NCBI GenBank assembly: GCA_032622095.1 | Contig: CP136065.1 | Span: 60,135,094-60,199,093 of the forward strand | DNA length: 64,000 nucleotides | Reading direction: 5' to 3' | Source of the DNA: Siphonodentalium dalli | Taxonomy: Eukaryota; Mollusca; Scaphopoda; Gadilida; Siphonodentaliidae | Translations under genes and position numbers: made by a program | Shown: piece after piece, positions 8,487 through 54,926 of the stretch | Position numbering within the stretch: position 1 is the stretch's first letter | Layout of the letters: every line of letters begins with the position of its first letter | Notes under the pieces: generated by a model | The model's database searches: none | The model's input: only the letters and a program-made list of their open reading frames with translations | Told to the model about the DNA's origin: nothing

Positions 8487-8828
8487 TGAGGTCAAACTGT
8501 TGTGGGGTCATGTACTGTATGTCAAATTATTCTCGGGCTTTTTATGGTCAAATAATTCTGGTGTTAGTTATGGTTAAATCATTCTGGGGTCATTTATGGT
8601 CAAATCATTGTGGGATCATATATGGGCAAATCTCTGTGTGGTAATTTATGGTATAAATTTTGTGGGATATAGTTTATGGTCAAATCATTGTGGGATAATT
8701 TATGGTCAAATCATTCTGGGATTATTTATGGTAAAATTATTCTGGGTTATTTATGGTAAAAACATTCTGGGTTATTTATATTAGATCATTGTAGGGTCAT
8801 TTATGGTCAAATCATTGTGGGGTCATGC
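8487..8828 (+). repeat. Degenerate 26-bp tandem repeat
   Basis: About a dozen diverged units close to GGTCAAATCATTGTGGG(A/G)TCATTTAT follow one another. Drift is strong, with unit length varying by one to three bases. It gives rise to chance open frames on the + strand. It is intronic. Confidence 0.85.
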
Positions 8829-30410: not shown

Positions 30411-32504
30411 TAGGGCCCTGCAAAGCTTCGAGATTCAATTTCATTTAATTGATCACTAATCGATCATCATAGGATTCAATTATATTTGAATAGCCCTTCT
30501 TGGCATATTTATGCATGAAAACGAACACTAGGGGTTGAAGATGTCTTAATTCAAATTTAAAATTTAACAATGTCTATTAGAATAACACTCCAAATGCATG
30601 GTAACGTAACTGACTGCTTTCTTCTTGCTATATTGATTTGTACCACACAGCGGGACTCCGACAACCGGACAGAAAAGAATGGTAAGGTATAATGTGGTTC
30701 TTATCCAGTCATGCATATGCAGGGTGCTATTCGAAAATATTGAAAAACATTTTACGAATGTCAACCAACCATATGGATTAATCAGTAAGCATTCTTGCAA
30801 ATTACTTGTAGACTTACATGGATAATGATGATGGGTCAAGTTGTAACACGCTCCATCACCATTCCGGCATCCTTGTATACCCCCAATACACTAGATTGGT
30901 AATAATATAAGGTTTAAAATTTCTATAGGTTTTTAGTCGAGTTTTGACGAGGGACGGTTGGCAGGCGGGTGGCGGACCTAAAGAATGCCTTATAACTTTG
31001 ACATTTGTGAACGGATTACAAAAAAATTTGGTATGGCAGTTGCTCCCAATGACTATTTACTGCCTGTAGAAAATGGGTCACGTCTGAACTTTTTAACAAG
31101 AGTTATCCATCTTAGATGGTTTTTAGTTAAGTTTTTCACCGATAGCGCGATAACGCACGCAAATATTAACCAATTTCAACAATATTTGGTATATGAGACT
31201 CTTGCAACAATATCTCGGAAGAGTTCGAAAACCAGGTTTGTCCGAATTTTTTTTCCGGAGTTATGGGTCTTAGTTTGTCTATTTTTAGCAATTTTATCAC
31301 CGTTAGCGCGATAACTCGATGAAATATTAACCGATTTCAACAATATTTGGTATATGAGTCTCCTGCAACAATATCTCGGACAGGTTCGAAAACCAGGTTT
31401 GTCCAAACAAATTTCGCGGAGTTATGGGTCTTAGTTTGTTTATTTTTTAGCAATTTTATCACCGTTAGCACGATAACTCGATGAAATATTAACTGATTAA
31501 ACAATATTTGGTATATGAGTCTCCTGCAACAATTTCTCAGACGAGTTCGAAAACCAGGTTTGTCCGAATTTTTTTTGCGGAGTTATGGGTCTTAGTTTGT
31601 CTATTTTTAGCAATTTTCTCACCGTTAGCGCGATAACTCGATGAAATATTAACCGATTTCAACAATATTTGGTATATGAGTCTCCTGCAACAATTTCTCG
31701 GACGAGTTCGAAAATCAGGTTTGTCCGAAATTTTTTCGCAGAGTTATGGGTCTTAGTTTGTCTATTTTTAGCAATTTTATCACCGTTGGCAAGATAACTC
31801 GATGAGATATTAACCGATTTCAACAATATTTGGTATGGCAGTTGCTCCCAATGACTATTTACTGCCTGTAGAAAATGGGTCACGTCTGAACTTTTTAACA
31901 AGAGTTATCCATCTTAGATGGTTTTTAGTTAAGTTTTTCACCGATAACGCGATAACTCACGCAAATATTAACCAATTTCAATAATATTTGGTATATGAGT
32001 CTCCTGCAACAATATCTCGGACGAGTTTGAAAACCAGGTTTGTCCGAATTTTTTTCGCAGAGTTATGGGTCTTAGTTTGTCTATTTTTAGCAATGTTATC
32101 ACCGTTAGCGCGATAACTCAATGAAATATTAACAGATTCAATTGATATTTGGTATATAGGTCTATTGCAATAATATACCACTGTCCAACTTTTTTTCCCG
32201 GAGTTGTGCACCTTATTGGCAGAAGTTTGGTTCGACTGCCAAAAAACTCGACAAAAGCATCTTAGATGCATACCCCTTGTTTTTGTATACTATCCAGGGA
32301 GCCAACCCCTTTTTAATGCATTAGTGCAATAGCATATAAAGACAAGCATTTAGTTTACTCGCTTCCTGGATGTACACGTAATGCATTCAATTTACTTGAA
32401 CCATGTTTATGTCGTCGCCCCCATTCGAATTGATGGTTCATGTATCACCTCTGTTTCAATTTGAGATTTGATTCGATTGCAAATCCCCCATTCGCAGGGC
32501 CCTA
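30411..32504. mobile_element. hAT-like element carrying a pearl-like insert
   Basis: The ends are TAGGGCCCTGCAAAGC and GCAGGGCCCTA, flanked by a perfect 8-bp duplication, ttctgaat (30403-30410 and 32505-32512). Subterminal ATTCAATT/GATTCGATT words are typical of this family. Most of the interior is the array at 30929-32285. No transposase is recognisable. Confidence 0.88.
30929..32285 (+). mobile_element. Pearl-like element with ~165-bp tandem monomers
   Basis: It starts GTTTTTAGTCGAGTTTTGACG with a GGGACGG..GGCGG tract. Monomers follow that contain TTATCACCGTTAGCGCGATA, CAACAATATTTGGTATATGA and GGAGTTATGGGTCTTAG. The 5' unit TTGGTATGGCAGTTGCTCCC recurs at 31839, so a longer block of about 810 bp was partly duplicated. 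It ends with hairpin GCATCttaGATGC then ATACCCCTTGTTTTT. Minus-strand frames here are shadows of the monomers. A partial relative is at 58486-58740. Confidence 0.75.
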
Positions 32505-38584: not shown

Positions 38585-41500
38585 CAGGGTTCGTACGGTC
38601 GCTTGAATATCTTGAAAGTGCTTGAATTTGGTTTTGGGATTTTCAAGCCCTTGAAAGTCATTGAAGTTTCCCTTAAACACGCTAAGGTGCTTGAAAGTGC
38701 TTGAATTTAGTCATCAAAGGTTGACTTACTGACACATGCTTGCCGTTTTCTACGCGGTATCAAGCGGTGTCAAAATTTTCAAGCTGCATTGTATGATTGC
38801 CAGGTAGTCGGTTCGTTTCGCTATTCATGCCGGTATTCCGCTATTTGCATTGACTCATGCTAAAAATATAACAATGGCGGTGCCCATGCTTTGAAATTTT
38901 CGCTAATCTTTTGTTAAAATAACAATGGGAAAGTGTGTGTTCAACACTATGTGGTTATCGCACAAAACTTATTCTGGTTAGTTGCAACAAACGAACAACA
39001 ATAGGAAGGCAATGTGCGTGCTTTGATGCAAGGAAATAGATATTTCTGGGATGGAGTCGACAAAACACGCGGCGAAAGTTAGACAGCGATCTGGTGTGAC
39101 GGTGAATAACTTTTTCGCAAGGAATCAGGCAAGAACGAATGCCCCATCGAACACATCAAATACTATGTCACCTGCAAATATCACAAGACCAACAGCATTC
39201 AGTTCAAATTCGAATGAAAGTACTACTAGTACAATGAGTGTGAGTCAATATGGATCTGGCGACATCATGAAAGCAGAGGTTCTTTGGACATTGAAGACTG
39301 AATTCTCATTATTCCTTCAGTCAAGTGAGAAAATAGGAACACTTTTTCAAAATATGTTCCCTGACAGTGACATTGCAAAAAAGTTTGGCTGCGGGGAGAC
39401 AAAATGCCGCTATCTCACCCAGTATGGACCCAAGGAATGGGTTAAACATCTGCCGATCGTGATCGGCCTCTCGTTTCAACAGTGAATTTATGGGGCACAC
39501 TCATGCTACAGACTTGTTGGAAAAATTCTATAACACTGTTGGTGCATTGCCTCTTCAAAATTTTAAGCAAATCATGCGGCCTTCATATTGTTCACGGAGC
39601 TTACAAAACAGCACTAGAGAGCACAGACTGGGACATCTCTAATTTACTGAGCAGCATGTATTACCTGTTCAAGGACAGTCCAGCATGCAGGGATGATTAT
39701 TTGAAATATTCAGGTAGTGTATTCCCACTGAAGTTCTGTAAATGTAGGTGGGTGGAGAGCGGCCCAGTTCTTGAAAGAGCCATAGTTATTTGGGAGTCTT
39801 GAAACAAATATATCAAAGCTGTGAAGGAGAAGAAAGTCACTGCCCCAAAGAACAAAAGTTTCGAGAGTTTGAGAAAGGCATCAGAAGATCAATTTGCTAT
39901 TGCCAAATTTGGGTTCTGTCTATCAGTGGCGAAGCAGATCCAACCATTTTTTACACTCTACCAGACAGACAAGCCGATGGTACCATTCTTGGCGACTGAT
40001 CTAGACCGACTTATAAGAGACATTGCTGAAAGATTCATGAAACCAAATGTTCTGTCAGAAAAAACAACATCAGCACTTATGGATATGGATGTGACTGACA
40101 CTACGAACAATGTTGAGGTGTCCAAAATAAACATTGGGTTCAAAGCTGAGAAATGTATCCAAGCGATGAAGTCAAAATCAGCTAGTGAGAATCCCAGTGA
40201 ATTGCAAATCTATACCTTCAGGATGGAATGCAAATCTGTTTTGATGAGTCTACTCAAAAAAATAATAAACAAATCTCCACTGACATATTCACTAGTTTGA
40301 AATATGAGCTTCCTGGATACAAGAAGAATTGCAACAGACACCGAAGCATGCAAGAGAAAACTGAAAAGCATTTTACTGAGCTTGATATCAGCTTCAGAGC
40401 GATGAGGACTGTGGTGAGATACTGTGTCAGTTCAATCACTTTTTAGGCGAAGATGTTGCTGGAAGATCAGAGTTAAAAAATTTCAATGTATTTACTGACA
40501 GAATTGATGTGCTTCTCCATGACTGTACATATATGGATACGGACCAATTCAAGAAATTGTGGGGCTTCGTAAAGGTTCTTCTTCTGTTGTCACATGGACA
40601 AGCATCTGTCGAAGGAGGCTTTTCATTGAACAGGCAGATAGAAACCAACAACTTGGAAGAACAATCATTTGTTGCAATGAGAATTGTGTTGGATCACATA
40701 AAGTATGTTGGAGGTGTACAGGCAGTAGACATAAATAAGAGATTGCTCAACTCAGCTTCATTAAAGGTACCATAATCACCTTTATGAACGACAAAAGAAG
40801 AAGGATGATGCCAAGGCCACTAATCGTAAAGCTTTGACTGATGAGATTGAAGTTCTGAAGAAAAAGAAGAGATTTCTTCAGAATGATATCACTGAACTCA
40901 TAAAATCAGCTGATGATTTGTCAGAGAAGGCTGAATCTGCGAGAAGCTTTGTTCTTGTCTCAATGCCATGAGGATTAAGGCAGAAGAGAAGAAGGAAGTC
41001 CTTTGAACTGTAGATAATGAGCTTGATGCTAAACTGCATGAGCTCAAAAACAAATGAACATCCATTCATCCAAGAATGACCATGCATTTTGTACATAGTG
41101 TATATACCTAGAAGTTGATTGAATAATATTCATATATGTATCATTGTATGAAGAAACAATGGACAAGTTGAATTAGACTGACACGTGTGCATCTATATGT
41201 ATAAAGACTTTAAAATTGGTGTCTAAAAACTTGAGTGTTTTTCTGATAGAAGTCATATAATACATGTACAAGGTTCTTCTTCTCTTTACTTCATAAAGAT
41301 TATCAACTTATCTATGGAAAATTCATCTGTTAGGATCATATTTTCTTTCTGCTATTTATGACCCTCTCTTTGGTACATAAATATGAAAATTCATTAAGTT
41401 ATTAGAACTAGTATACCCATCCAATTAATGAAATACAGGTAGTTTTAGGGATGATGTTATTATGTTATTCTTCATTCGAACGAAGCACAAGTCATGCATC

Positions 41501-45833: not shown

Positions 45834-46091
<258 letters not shown>

Positions 46092-47793: not shown

Positions 47794-47849
47794 GATGGAG
47801 CAACAACAGACAGTGAGGAGAGACTCCTAGTCATAGGTGCTACAAACAG
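47794..47849 (+). CDS. FIGNL1: FIGNL1 sensor-1 exon; source of the minisatellite
   Basis: The acceptor is TCTTTTCATAG|GAT and the donor ACAAACAG|GTGAGG; phase 0 in, phase 2 out. It encodes DGATTDSEERLLVIGATN(R). GATNR is the sensor-1 motif, whose N contacts the ATP gamma phosphate through water. The last 37 nt (47813-47849) are the first unit of the tandem array that follows, so the exon's own 3' end is repeated about a hundred times in the intron. The first donor is the only one that joins in frame to the next exon to give NRPKEID. Confidence 0.97.
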
Positions 47850-50800
47850 GTGAGGAACGACTCCTAGTCATAGATGCTACAAACAGGTGAGGAACGACTC
47901 CTAGTCATAGGTGCTACAAACAGGTGAGGAACGACTCCTAGTCATAGGTGCTACAAACAGGTGAGGAACGACTCCTAGTCATAGGTGCTACAAACAGGTG
48001 AGGAACGACTCTTAGTCATAGGTGCTACAAACAGGTGAGGAACGACTCCTAGTCATAGATGCTACAAACAGGTGAGGAACGACTCCTAGTCATAGGTGCT
48101 ACAAACAGGTGAGGAACGACTCCTAGTCATAGGTGCTACAAACAGGTGAGGAACGACTCCTAGTCATAGGTGCTACAAACAGGTGAGGAACGACTCCTAG
48201 TCATAGGTGCTACAAACAGGTGAGGAACGACTCCTAGTCATAGGTGCTACAAACAGGTGAGGAACGACTCCTAGTCATAGGTGCTACAAACAGGTGAGGA
48301 ACGACTCCTAGTCATAGGTGCTACAAACAGGTGAGGAACGACTCCTAGTCATAGGTGCTACAAACAGGTGAGGAACGACTCCTAGTCATAGGTGCTACAA
48401 ACAGGTGAGGAACGACTCCTAGTCATAGGTGCTACAAACAGGTGAGGAACGACTCTTAGTCATAGGTGCTACAAACAGGTGAGGAACGACTCCTAGTCAT
48501 AGGTGCTACAAACAGGTGAGGAACGACTCCTAGTCATAGGTGCTACAAACAGGTGAGGAAAGACTCCTAGTCATAGGTGCTACAAACAGGTGAGGAACGA
48601 CTCCTAGTCATAGGTGCTACAAACAGGTGAGGAACGACTCCTAGTCATAGGTGCTACAAACAGGTGAGGAACGACTCCTAGTCATAGGTGCTACAAACAG
48701 GTGAGGAACGACTCCTAGTCATAGGTGCTACAAACAGGTGAGGAACGACTCCTAGTCATAGGTGCTACAAACAGGTGAGGAACGACTCCTAGTCATAGGT
48801 GCTACAAACAGGTGAGGAACGACTCCTAGTCATAGGTGCTACAAACAGGTGAGGAACGACTCCTAGTCATAGGTGCTACAAACAGGTGAACGACTCCTAG
48901 TCATAGGTGCTACAAACAGGTGAGGAACGACTCCTACTCATATGTGCTACAAACAGGTGAGGAACGACTCCTAGTCATAGGTGCTACAAACAGGTGAGGA
49001 ATGACTCCTAGTCATAGGTGCTACAAACAGGTGAGGAACGACTCCTAGTCATAGGTGCTACAATCAGGTGAGGAACGACTCCTAGTCATAGGTGCTACAA
49101 ACAGGTGAGGACGACTCCTAGTCATAGGTGCTACAAACAGGCGAGGAACGACTCCTAGTCATAGGTGCTACAAACAGGTGAGGAACGACTCCTAGTCATA
49201 GGTGCTACAAACAGGTGAGGAACGACTCCTAGTCATATGTGCTACAAACAGGTGAGGAACGACTCCTAGTCATAGGTGCTACAAACAGGTGAGGATCGAA
49301 TCCTAGTCATAGGTGCTACAAACAGGTGAGGAACGACTCCTAGTCATAGGTGCTACAAACAGGTGAGGAACGACTCCTAGTCATAAGTGCTACAAACAGG
49401 TGAGGAACGACTCCTAGTCATAGGTGCTACAAACAGGTGAGGAACGACTCCTAGTCATAGGTGCTACAAACAGGTGAGGAACGACTCCTAGTCATAGGTG
49501 CTACAAACAGGTGAGGAACGACTCCTAGTCATAGGTGCTACAAACAGGTGAGGAACGACTCCTAGTCATAGGTGCTACAAACAGGTGAGGAACGACTCCT
49601 AGTCATAGGTGCTACAAACAGGTGAGGAACGACTCCTAGTCATAGGTGCTACAAACAGGTGAGGAACGACTCCTAGTCATAGGTGCTACAAACAGGTGAG
49701 GAACGACTCCTAGTCATAGATGCTACAAACAGGTGAGGAACGACTCCTAGTCATAGGTGCTACAAACAGGTGAGGAACGACTCCTAGTCATAGGTGCTAC
49801 AAACAGGTGAGGAACGACTCCTAGTCATAGGTGCTACAAACAGGTGACGAACGACTCCTACTCATATGTGCTACAAACAGGTGAGGAACGACTCCTAGTC
49901 ATAGGTGCTACAAACAGGTGAGGAACGACTCCTAGTCATAGGTGCTACAAACAGGTGAGGAACGACTCCTAGTCATAGGTGCTACAAACAGGTGAGGAAC
50001 GACTCCTAGTCATAGGTGCTACAAACAGGTGAGGAACGACTCCTAGTCATAGGTGCTACAAACAGGTGAGGAACGACTCGTAGTCATAGGTGCTACAAAC
50101 AGGTGAGGAACGACTCCTAGTCATAGATGCTACAAACAGGTGAGGAACGACTCCTAGTCATAGGTGCTACAAACAGGTGAGGAACGACTCCTAGTCATAG
50201 GTGCTACAAACAGGTGAGGAACGACTCCTAGTCATAGGTGCTACAAACAGGTGAGGAACGACTCTTACTCATATGTGTTACAAACAGGTGAGGAATGACT
50301 CCTAGTCATAGGTGCTACAAACAGGTGAGGAACGACTCCTAGTCATAGGTGCTACAAACAGGTGAGGAACGACTCCTAGTCATAGGTGCTACAAACAGGT
50401 GAGGAACGACTCCTAGTCATAGGTGCTACAAACAGGTGATGAACGACTCCTAGTCATAGGTGCTACAAACAGGTGAGGAACGACTCCTAGTCATAGGTGC
50501 TACAAACAGGTGAGGAACGACTCCTAGTCATAGGTGCTACAAACAGGTGAACGACTCCTAGTCATAGGTGCTACAAACAGGTGAGGAACGACTCCTAGTC
50601 ATAGGTGCTACAAACAGGTGAGGAACGACTCCTAGTCATAGATGCTACAAACAGGTGATGAACGACTCCTAGTCATAGTTGCTACAAACAGGTGAGGAAC
50701 GACTCCTAGTCATAGGTGCTACAAACAGGTGAGGAACGACTCCTAGTCATAGGTGCTACAAACAGGTGAGGAACGACTCCTATTCATATGTGCTACAAAC

Positions 50801-51610
50801 AGGTGAGGAACGACTCCTAGTCATAGGTGCTACAAACAGGTGAGGAATGACTCCTAGTCATAGGTGCTACAAACAGGTGAGGAACGACTCCTAGTCATAG
50901 GTGCTACAAACAGGTGAGGAACGACTCCTACTCATAGGTGCTACAAACAGGTGAGGAACGACTCCTAGTCATAGATGCAACAAACAGGTGAGGAACGACT
51001 CCTACTCATATGTGCTACAAACAGGTGAGGAACGACTCCTAGTCATAGGTGCTACAAACAGGTGAGGAACGACTCCTAGTCATAGGTGCAACAAACAGGT
51101 GAGGAACGACTCCTACTCATATGTGCTACAAACAGGTGAGGAACGACTCCTAGTCATAGGTGCTACAAACAGGTGAGGAACGACTCCTACTCATATGTGC
51201 TACAAACAGGTGAGGAACGACTCCTACTCATAGGTGCTACAAACAGGTGAGGAACGACTCCTAGTCATAGGTGCTACAAACAGGTGAGGAACGACTCCTA
51301 GTCATAGGTGCAACAAACAGGTGAGGAACGACTCCTACTCATAGGTGCTACAAACAGGTGAGGAACGACTCCTAGTCATAGGTGCTACAAACAGGTGAGG
51401 AACGACTCCTAGTCATAGATGCTACAAACAGGTGAGGAACGACTCCTAGTCATAGGTGCAACAAACAGGTGAGGAACGACTCCTACTCATAGGTGCTACA
51501 AACAGGTGAGGAACGACTCCTAGTCATAGGTGCTACAAACAGGTGAGGAACGACTCCTAGTCATAGGTGCTACAAACAGGTGAGGAACGACTCCTAGGTG
51601 CTACAAACAG
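47813..51610 (+). repeat. 37-bp minisatellite made from an exon end, ~102 copies
   Basis: The unit is GTGAGGAACGACTCCTAGTC plus ATAGGTGCTACAAACAG, 37 bp; 3,798 bp corresponds to about 102 units. The first unit (47813-47849) is exon sequence. Units are highly uniform in the first part of the array. Variants include ATAGATGC, CTCATATG, 34-bp units lacking GGA (near 48888 and 50549), a GCGAGG variant near 49140 and a shortened last unit (about 31 bp). Nearly every unit junction reads CAG|GTGAGG, a consensus 5' splice site. After the last unit the sequence continues GTGTGTACTTT. Confidence 0.98.
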
Positions 51611-52684
51611 GTGTGTACTTTACTGTGCCAAGAAAATGGTAAAGCATTTTAGTAAGCAGTGTAAAATGATCGAATATAAGAAAGGTAAAGTCTTATTAAT
51701 ATTAATCGGATTGTTTATCACTGAAATTTCAATCACGTTCTCCACACTGTGTAGTGAGAGCATCGAAGCATGAATACTGATTCTGCCAGAGATTGAATCA
51801 TGCTCTGAGTTGCAACTCTTGTCTTAGGTTTTTGTCATGTTTACGTTATTGTACCAAGACATTAAATAGGAACCATGTCAGCTCTTTATACCCATGTGAT
51901 AGGTAGGATCTGAAAAATTGCTGAAGTTGGTTTATTAGCCTCAATTAAAGGCTGGGATGATGAGTTCTCAAAGCTACATCTGGGATAATAATAATCAATT
52001 ATTGTGATTATACAGCACTTACGTTCAATCACTCAAACATACATGGCTCATTTGAACCTCTAAATTATGTTCATTGTGTGTAATTTGTGCAAAGATTCAT
52101 ATGCAGAATATTTTCGACTGATCTTGTCGATGTATCACTGAAATATGACATTTCTTTCTGTAAAATTTGGTGTGTGATCTTCATGCTAAAACAACTGGAG
52201 GAGAAAAAAGACCCCTTTTAATGTTCGAAATGGTAGTTTTTCCGAGGCTTGTAAAGTCAGTATAAAAGTATTTCATGTATATATTGACATATTTTGATCC
52301 AAGAAACTGGTTTGGAATATGACATAAGATGGACTTACTAGGTATAGTTTGAAGTTCCAAATTGCCCTGGGCCTTTAATATTCAATTATTATCATTCAGT
52401 CATAAGATTCTTATGACCGGTATCATGAGGAATAGACAATTTCATTATATACCTATGATATATTCAGGGATCCAAGCTGCTTTTTACAAAACCTATTTAC
52501 TTTTAATTTGAATTCTAGTGAACAAATATTAATGATTGACAGTGATGTGAAACACTCCGGTTGGGCGATCAAATAGAAATGGGGAATAATCCTGCTCAAA
52601 GTTTTTTTTATGAATATTAATCCAAATTTCCAGCACACACACACCGTTATTTTTATGTGTAACCATACCATAGTATGGTACACA
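51611..52684. other. Intron after the minisatellite
   Basis: It starts CAG|GTGTGTACTT, which could be the pre-expansion donor. Nothing else is recognised until the pearl-like repeat at 52685. Confidence 0.45.
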
Positions 52685-53240
52685 TAGTGTCGACGTCTGG
52701 ATTGACCACACTTCGTTCGTCCGTCCGTCCGTCCGTCGAGCCGTCCGTAGACACTTTACACATGGTGCGATAACTCAAACATTTTCTAACTGATCAGAAC
52801 CAAATTTTGTATATGAATTTCTCAGACCAAAATACAGATCGAGTTTGAATATGGGTTTGATCTGAGTTTTTTTTACGGAGTTATGGCCCTTTTTCGACTT
52901 AGAATTCACGGATGCTACGATCACTAAAAAAAAATTTATCTGATGAGAACCAAATTGGTATGTGAGTTTCTCCACCTAAAATACAGTTCGAGTTTGAATA
53001 TGGGTTTGATCAGATTATGTTTAATGGAGTTATGGCCCTTTGACATAGAATTCATGCATGCTTCGATAAATCAACCAGTTTTCATCTGATAGGAACCAAA
53101 TTTGATATGTGAGTTTCTCAACCCAAAATACAGATCGAGTTTGAATATGGGTTAGATCCTGTTTTTTATACCAGAATTATGGTCCCTTTTTAACTAAGAA
53201 TTGAACAGATTTGAGATTTTTATGCTTACAATATATAACC
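52685..53240 (+). repeat. Pearl-like element
   Basis: A (GTCC)n tract (52715-52748) is followed by three monomers of about 125 bp with GATAACTCAAACATTTT, AATACAGATCGAGTTTGAAT and GGAGTTATGGCCC. A further monomer fragment lies at 53848-53938. The 3' end is not clear. Confidence 0.65.
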
Positions 53241-54471
53241 ATAGCAGCTTACAATTAATTACCTGTGATATCAGTTAGCTCTAAGAGAGAGACAAGAGTA
53301 AACCGGTATTATGATAATTAGATTTATTTTTAGCCGTCATATGTTCAGCACAGCTGTGAAAGGTGTAACCCATTCATGAATTGGAATAGTCTACTGTTCA
53401 TTTGTAGGGATGTTCTCATAATTTGAGCAGATAGAGAGAACCGCATTTAGAAGCACTATTTTTATAAAGTTACACAGTCCTATAATGATATCTGATACTC
53501 TCTGCTGCACATATCAAATGACTTTAATAGCCATCTGTTGTTTATTGCATTTCCATAGTGTGTGGACAGTGTTGGCCCAGGGTTTATCAACTCCCACATA
53601 GCTCTCTGGTTTAGCCTATCAATGGAGTGTTCAAGTGACATGCCTGGTACAGTCACCTAATTTTATAGAGTTAAAATTGTTAACCCTGGTCATCAATTTT
53701 ATGCTTTTGTATATTTTTCATGTAATCATTCTCCTTTTATATCCCTTTCACTTGTATGGATTTTTTTAGTTAAAATGAACCCTTCTCACCATTCCTGATA
53801 CTTAGTAGAAATACCTTTCATCTGATATATCTCATTTTATTGAGATGTATGTAAATTTGGTATGTGAGTTTCTCAGCCCAAAATACAGATAGAGTTCGAA
53901 TTTGGGTATGATCCATTTTTTTAAACGGAGTTATGGCTTATGGATTTTCGCGTCCCAACTGAAAATAGCTGTTCACTATAGCCAAAGTATGGGTTTAACA
54001 TCTGCCGATCGTGACCGGCCTCTCGTTATATATTAATTAAATGCAATGACTCTCAACAGCGAAATCATTTGCGTTAGTTTATCGCCGACTGTTGCGTCCC
54101 GAATCGATATGTAAATATTAACAATTATGCATAGTTCAGACAATGATATCTATGGAGTGGTATGGTCGATTTCTTTGAGATTTTCGGAGATGTTAGTAGT
54201 ATGCTACATTCCCACAGTTGGCACTAACTTATCAGTTTCACGCACCCGAACAAGTCCATATTATGTCTTTAAACAAGTTGTGTTGCACGGAAGAAACTAT
54301 TTTATTGATATTGAATTTCAGTACATTTATTTCATATCTATTCCATGTTTTAGATGGACACATGAAATTATTTTGTTAATTTATCAATAACAGGGATATT
54401 CTTTGGAATTCATAGGTCTAGTTTATGTCATATTCCTGTTTTCAACAGAAACAAGCAGAAAACAATGTTAA
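53241..54471. other. Intron; pearl fragment, otherwise nothing
   Basis: The segment GTTTAACATCTGCCGATCGT (53994 on) continues GACCGGCCTCTCGTT and matches the sequence at the deletion point in the hAT-like pseudogene (39436-39476). No gene was recognised. Confidence 0.5.
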
Positions 54472-54679
54472 CCCTTCTATGACTGGAGCTTCCTGAAATT
54501 TGGCGAAAATCCCACAGGGAGCCTCACATATATATAAGAGAATAAAATATTTACCTTGATATTTAACCAGTGCATTCTTTTATATATATGAGATTCCCTA
54601 TGTGGGACTCGCATATTTAAGAGAATGCATTGGCACAGGATCTGTAATGCTGTACAAGCGCGCTCCTGTCATGAAAGGG
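54472..54679. mobile_element. TTAA-flanked MITE, copy 3
   Basis: TTAA flanks both ends (54468-54471 and 54680-54683). The ends are CCCTTCTATGACTGGAGC and GCTCCTGTCATGAAAGGG. It lies 83 bp upstream of the last visible exon. A 5' half-copy is at 55981-56170. Confidence 0.85.
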
Positions 54680-54762
54680 TTAAAATATAATTTGATGTTG
54701 TTGTTACTGGAGGTTTGGCACCCTGTATACATCTTTAAGTGACATTATTCTGTTCATTTTAG

Positions 54763-54926
54763 ACCTAAGGAGATTGATGAGGCAGCTAGGAGACGATTTG
54801 TGAAGCGACTTTATATTCCTCTACCTGATCACTCTGCTCGAATGCAGATCGTAAACAACCTCCTACAGGAACAAAGTTACTCACTAACAGAGCAACATCT
54901 AGAGGATTTATGTTCCAAAACTGGTG
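54763..54926 (+). CDS. FIGNL1: FIGNL1 exon with arginine-finger region (last found)
   Basis: The acceptor is GTTCATTTTAG|A and the donor ACTGGTG|GTAAGA; phase 2 in, phase 1 out. It reads [20 protein letters not shown] and goes on with PDHSARMQIV, then SKTG. EAARRR holds the arginine fingers that act on the neighbouring subunit's ATP. It matches [20 protein letters not shown] of vertebrate FIGNL1. The expected next exon, beginning around YSGADM, was not found before 64000. Confidence 0.97.

Follow-up and report, generated by a model that had tools for sequence, protein, structure and literature searches.

Tandem repeats that span exon-intron boundaries are already known in human genes, and the gain of introns by tandem duplication has reportedly been described by Gao and Lynch in 2009 and by Zhuo et al. 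in 2007. The relevant passages of De Grassi and Ciccarelli (2009; PMC2812944) concern human segmental-duplication genes with internal tandem repeats at exon-intron boundaries, which change how transcripts are spliced or give rise to introns; transcripts support 27 such intron modifications there, as alternative splicing. For the RdRp gene of potato, the passage cited describes an intron gained through tandem duplication, the duplicated sequence bringing splice sites with it or creating them (PMC4974935). Intron 6 of TERT contains a VNTR with a 38-bp unit, placed by its description more than 1 kb from the exon-intron junctions (PMC3948165). In GYNGYN tandem donors, as characterized in the passages cited, a single exon end has several competing 5′ splice sites, separated by a few bases (PMC1779574, PMC2423196).

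The locus described here lies in the FIGNL1 gene of the scaphopod Siphonodentalium dalli, where the end of a short exon and its donor are repeated into the following intron. Like the human repeats in those passages, this array spans an exon-intron boundary; it differs in that arrays of this kind recur within one genome, with up to 103 units, that the donor is rebuilt at nearly each junction, and that they are known from sequence alone (compare PMC2812944). With intron gain as described for potato it shares a duplication that brings in or generates splice sites, yet at FIGNL1 no new intron position would arise, and a probably old intron would instead be enlarged at its edge (PMC4974935). Whereas the TERT repeat, also an intronic tandem repeat, stands well away from the junctions in that account, the FIGNL1 array begins inside an exon (PMC3948165). 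As with the GYNGYN donors covered by those passages, several donors would compete at one exon end, but they are spaced by about 37 bp and number 103 (PMC1779574, PMC2423196). In the open-licence literature that was searched, no case came up in which an exon end and its donor are repeated tens to a hundred times, and neither an array of the size seen at FIGNL1 nor the recurrence of such arrays in one genome was found there.

The window, meaning the whole stretch of 64,000 nucleotides that was analysed, comes from contig CP136065.1 (positions 60,135,094 to 60,199,093 of the forward strand), and its features are collected in Table 1. The gene had been called FIGNL1 in the preliminary description, and this identification is borne out by the preceding exon, whose top match in the PDB is FIGNL1 (3d8b, 7.1e-25). 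When joined, the FIGNL1 exons match the Pfam AAA family over its full length (profile positions 1-131 of 131, 6.9e-41), and a later FIGNL1 exon is located beyond the window, at C5:60212004. The preceding exon ends at 46073 with the donor CTG|GTATGT (intron start 46074). The 56-nt exon, which we take to cover sensor 1, codes for DGATTDSEERLLVIGATN plus AG and aligns with a segment of human FIGNL1; it is flanked by introns of 1720 bp upstream and 6913 bp downstream. The next exon is preceded by ttttag, and its junction with 47849 restores AG|A CCT, which reads R-P.

Table 1. Features of the FIGNL1 locus, in window positions, and repeats at the edges of other exons
Feature	Position	Strand	Basis and remarks
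Preceding FIGNL1 exon	45912..46073 (approximate start)	+	tblastn with a human FIGNL1 segment; PDB match to FIGNL1; translation (11 letters not shown)...EFLVQL
56-nt FIGNL1 sensor-1 exon (presumed label)	47794..47849	+	3′-terminal 37 nt (47813-47849) form unit 1
Array of 103 units, mostly 37 bp, 102 of them intronic	47813..51610	+	TRF and cutting at unit ends
Donor 1, CAG|GTGAGG	47847..47855	+	sole frame-preserving donor among 103
Terminal donor, CAG|GTGTGT, probably original	51608..51616	+	judged original from its place at the array end
Next FIGNL1 exon	54763..54926 (end by eye)	+	begins RPKEIDEAARRR...; in frame with donor 1
Donor-edge repeat regions			L074, L120, L140, L143, L159, L161, L167, L174, L178, L185, L190
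Acceptor-edge repeats holding the exon start			L042, 71 bp x 6.3; L090, 32 bp x 14.9; L065, two copies 380 bp apart
Codon differences of copies from exon, synonymous/not			L143 5/3; L178 7/2; L159 0/15; L161 1/0; L167 0/1; L185 0/1; L140 none

Run over the window, TRF reports the repeat at 47806-51597, with a period of 37, 102.7 copies and 97% matches, and cutting at unit ends divides the 3798 bp of the array into 103 units. The count of about 102 amplified copies of the exon end within its own intron, given in the preliminary description, thus stands, as 102 units follow unit 1. Four units are off-length (31, 34, 34 and 36 bp); 63 of the 103 are identical to the consensus, and each of the others has between one and four substitutions or has lost 1-6 bp. 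The head-to-tail units, which fall within the 10-100 bp range of minisatellites, start inside the exon and continue into the intron, and the exons on either side are intact and joinable in frame, as in a minisatellite at an exon-intron boundary. The intron that bears it contains non-repeat sequence as well (51611-54762). The proposal that the unit corresponds to the final 37 nt of the exon is exact for unit 1; the array consensus departs from it at two bases, A8G and C9A, both of which are synonymous in the reading frame of the exon (GAG AGA against GAA CGA). Moreover, GTG is common to both breakpoints, in the exon (ACA-GTG-AGG) and in the intron after the last unit (CAG-GTG-TGT), so the breakpoint is ambiguous by 3 bp and the unit may equally be described as 34 exon bases plus 3 intron bases. 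A dispersed repeat or transposon as the source of the unit is unsupported, since a two-unit query against the 2.2-Gb assembly, in a search that skips very common words, matched no place besides the FIGNL1 array.

A G18C unit follows a T29A unit in all four cases (p = 5e-5), which indicates block duplication, and variant units make up 24 of 51 in the 3′ half against 15 of 51 in the 5′ half (p = 0.10). The nine donor positions among the 37 hold 3 of the 18 substitution types against 4.4 expected (p = 0.59); they are conserved no better than the rest of the unit, as is expected if copies 2-103 are unused.

Unit ends are followed by GT in 102 of 103 cases and by GC in one. A CAG|GTGAGG site had been claimed for every junction; a near-consensus donor is indeed present at almost all of them, with the exact motif at 96 of the 103 unit ends, while five vary at +5 or +6, one has GC, and the last is CAG|GTGTGT. 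The predicted duplex with the 5′ end of U1 has -11.6 kcal/mol for CAG|GTGAGG and -9.1 for the terminal donor (intron start 51611), against -14.0 for a perfect match, and a normal U1 5′ end (ATACTTACCTG) is found in all eight U1 loci fetched. On its plus strand the window has four equally strong GT sites beyond those of the array, and none of them lies in the two introns that flank the 56-nt exon. In base pairing, the earlier picture of about a hundred donors equivalent for U1 is accurate, 96 of 103 having the same duplex energy; it fails in the outcome. When each donor is joined in silico to the next exon, the frame stays open with donor 1 only, and the remaining 102 all run into one common stop codon.

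These observations are probably best explained by a minisatellite that was seeded by a tandem duplication at the 3′ edge of the exon, then grew, and has been tolerated through exon definition. The duplication would have had one breakpoint at an internal GTG of the exon and the other at the GTG with which the intron starts, so that the end of the exon came to adjoin sequence from within it. Each copy would thereby end in AAACAG with GTGAGG behind it, which makes a better 5′ splice site than GTGTGT, the probable original, and slippage or unequal exchange may then have raised the number to 102 extra copies. Exon definition would pair the acceptor with the nearest, that is the first, donor, so that copies 2-103 would be removed with the intron and the array would be close to neutral. 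Tolerance of this kind would follow from the setting of a short exon (56 nt) between introns of 1720 and 6913 bp, where exon definition should favour the first donor. In the passages cited from PMC9225289, exon definition favours, among 5′ splice sites, the one that lies closest to the acceptor across the exon, and with two identical CAG/guaagu donors and flanking introns of 365 nt, five minigenes were spliced exclusively at the upstream donor; those minigenes hold two donors, whereas the FIGNL1 array holds 103. The same passages state that under intron definition the downstream donor is preferred (PMC9225289). If the FIGNL1 intron were spliced by intron definition, downstream donors would accordingly be chosen and a truncated protein made, which counts against the use of donor 1.

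For the question of recurrence, 166 exons were chosen through protein and family searches and examined with flanks of 400, 350 or 1500 bp. One subset took 35 of 50 matches, leaving out five in the window and ten members of presumed paralog clusters; another took 34 of 85, hand-picked to thin paralog clusters; a third took all of its nine matches. The kinesin subset (77 of 123), drawn after the idea of a hot spot had arisen, was hand-picked from the upper part of the list with several exons per gene, and the SNF2 subset consists of the best 11 of 73 matches. Repeats that hold the exon end together with its donor are found by TRF and by eye at 11 of 155 exons (Table 1), the two-copy cases L074 and L120 having been recognized by eye; exon-edge arrays are absent from the 11 SNF2 exons. 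The preliminary description knew of no named system of this kind, and the FIGNL1 case is not isolated: exon-edge arrays recur in the genome, and boundary tandem repeats are described for human genes in the passages already cited (PMC2812944). The array of L159 is common to three kinesin paralogs, with about 14.7, 11.5 and 14.5 copies, and a two-copy state is common to two myosin paralogs. Codon comparison with the exon, restricted to copies that lie within 15% of it and have no indels, gives a mixed balance of synonymous and nonsynonymous differences across these arrays. On the acceptor side, L042 and L090 are mirror images of FIGNL1, the first bases of the exon and its acceptor being amplified into the upstream intron; intronic arrays that merely abut an acceptor (L095, L189 and the upstream array of L159) were counted apart from those that bear exon sequence. 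Separately, C6:220294135-220294508 contains three matches to one stretch of the SNF2 profile (4-44, 4-32 and 4-38) within 374 bp, and is probably another tandem exon duplication.

A neutral model alone leaves the position of these arrays unexplained. With a cut set at a period of at least 15, a match of at least 80% and at least 2.5 copies, 13 of the 15 arrays in the first 155 regions touch an exon edge (eight at donors, and five at acceptors, three of which are intronic and only abut the exon), ten hold exon sequence, and two lie in the flanks. It is conceivable, at somewhat less than even chances, that exon edges, and donors above all, are hot spots at which copies are made and extended by a process linked to transcription or splicing, be it pausing, R-loops or breaks at 5′ splice sites, perhaps in germline-transcribed genes. 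This would add a cause to the tandem-duplication explanation and would not replace it. When array ends are placed evenly over the flanks and over the outermost 60 nt of each exon, exon-bearing edge arrays are in excess both with the SNF2 set included (10 of 16, p = 2e-6) and in kinesins alone (8 of 11, p = 2e-5). From the density of arrays in the window itself (4 in 60,202 bp, a count that excludes two window arrays just below the 80% match cut) 1.2 would be expected, against ten observed. Edge arrays are 11 of 12 at a cut of 3 copies, and among arrays of 1.8 to 2.5 copies TRF places one of 28 at an edge, to which L074 and L120 are added by eye. A germline role is known for FIGNL1, PSME4 and many kinesins, as would suit a process at work there. 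Against this stand a copy cut that was chosen post hoc (from 1.8 copies upward the edge count is 14 of 43, p = 0.0014) and an uneven rate, with donor-edge arrays of at least 2.5 copies at 8 of 77 kinesin exons, in eight separate loci, and at none of the 89 others (p = 0.0017). The preference for donors over acceptors, eight to two, has p = 0.11, and three of the five acceptor-side arrays are those that abut an exon without including it. Given the post hoc cut and a donor result carried by kinesins, a hot spot at exon edges is likely and not proven. GC-rich units as a reason for the clustering are unsupported, seven edge units having 30-49% GC. A still broader proposal, which seems rather doubtful, is that throughout the lineage a germline process linked to splicing or transcription duplicates the edges of exons, splice signals included, in many genes, hidden by exon definition, so that introns grow outward. 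That such arrays recur at other exon edges suggests a route by which introns lengthen and splice sites multiply with the protein left intact.

Donor arrays were also sought by motif. The genome was searched for pairs of CAGGTAAGT and of CAGGTGAGG at a spacing of 14-26 bp, and 15 loci were fetched, five from the former search and ten from the latter. Three of the 15 begin where a coding-like exon ends, in PSME4, in a VWA-domain gene and in an exon on C6; in the other 12 no exon was confidently recognized. The PSME4 locus aligns at 22 of 22 residues (7.6e-6), and in C6:69091700-69102300 (L015, L027 and L028) neighbouring PSME4 exons each have a donor-edge array, with units of 22 bp and 67 bp, the second of 67 bp x 10 with the donor AAG|GTATGT. 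The exon that follows the first of these presumably belongs to PSME4 too, its translation having been compared with PSME4 by eye. The array of the VWA-domain gene contains 90 donor motifs, and two joined exons of the gene match Pfam VWA_2 at 8.7e-8. At the third locus an exon-end donor array belongs to a coding-like exon on C6 that lies behind an acceptor; a search for the name of its gene found no identification. As evidence of a genome-wide excess, arrays of donor motifs are ruled out, because reversed motifs are not rarer, and this also speaks against a hot spot. Among the matches listed for CAGGTGAGG (100 of 219 places), seven loci with at least two pairs and four with one were counted by eye, compared with six and 13 when the motif is reversed (51 of 51 places). 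Counts obtained with CAGGTAAGT are 20 + 168, compared with 157 + 167 after reversal, and one satellite dominates among the CAGGTAAGT matches listed. Two other loci from these searches have a character of their own. C1:231979802-232059205 (L009) extends over about 80 kb, where a 26-bp unit that includes CAGGTAAGT occurs many times, a donor-like satellite in which no exon was seen, and in L012 (C5:251617478-251618615) a 21-bp repeat with CAGGTGAGG lies inside an open frame of 439 codons made of 7-residue repeats (NRPGEDSCRPGEDS...).

The FIGNL1 array is a natural experiment on how the spliceosome picks among many near-identical 5′ splice sites in each transcript. If splicing goes almost always through donor 1, proximity to the acceptor on the other side of the exon would outrank a hundred competitors; if it does not, copy number would set the output. 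A functional array of the latter kind, in which copy number tunes FIGNL1 output through an early stop and message decay, or through U1 sites that block early polyadenylation, is improbable. It agrees with the single stop reached from all 102 downstream donors and with U1 pairing that is stronger than at the terminal donor for 96 of 103, and the passages cited on the TERT intron report that its 38-bp repeat alters splicing according to copy number (PMC3948165). A function of this sort is at odds, however, with donor positions conserved no better than the rest of the unit, and with similar arrays in unrelated genes, some of them at acceptors. Far less probable is the splicing of the units themselves as nested or recursive introns, suggested by a unit that starts GT and ends AG (GTGAGG...AAACAG) and by AG|GT at the junctions: recursive splice sites are pyrimidine-rich AG|GT sites inside introns, whereas pyrimidines make up 44% before the AG of the array against 75% before both real acceptors, and to our knowledge the spliceosomal introns of animals are all longer than the 37 nt of a unit. 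Least probable of all is an assembly artefact that makes the array or its length false, for although long arrays are difficult to assemble, the unit variants here are ordered with a block structure, and similar arrays occur in many other genes with lengths that differ between paralogs. The duplication at the exon edge, followed by growth and tolerance, remains the preferred explanation.

Elsewhere in the window, tandem arrays are present at 31120-32176 (161 bp x 6.6) and 8521-8823 (26 bp x 11.7), with no exon recognized at either. Three long overlapping open frames at 39027-40775, for which a Pfam search returned no family above its cut-off, resemble a broken gene or a mobile element.
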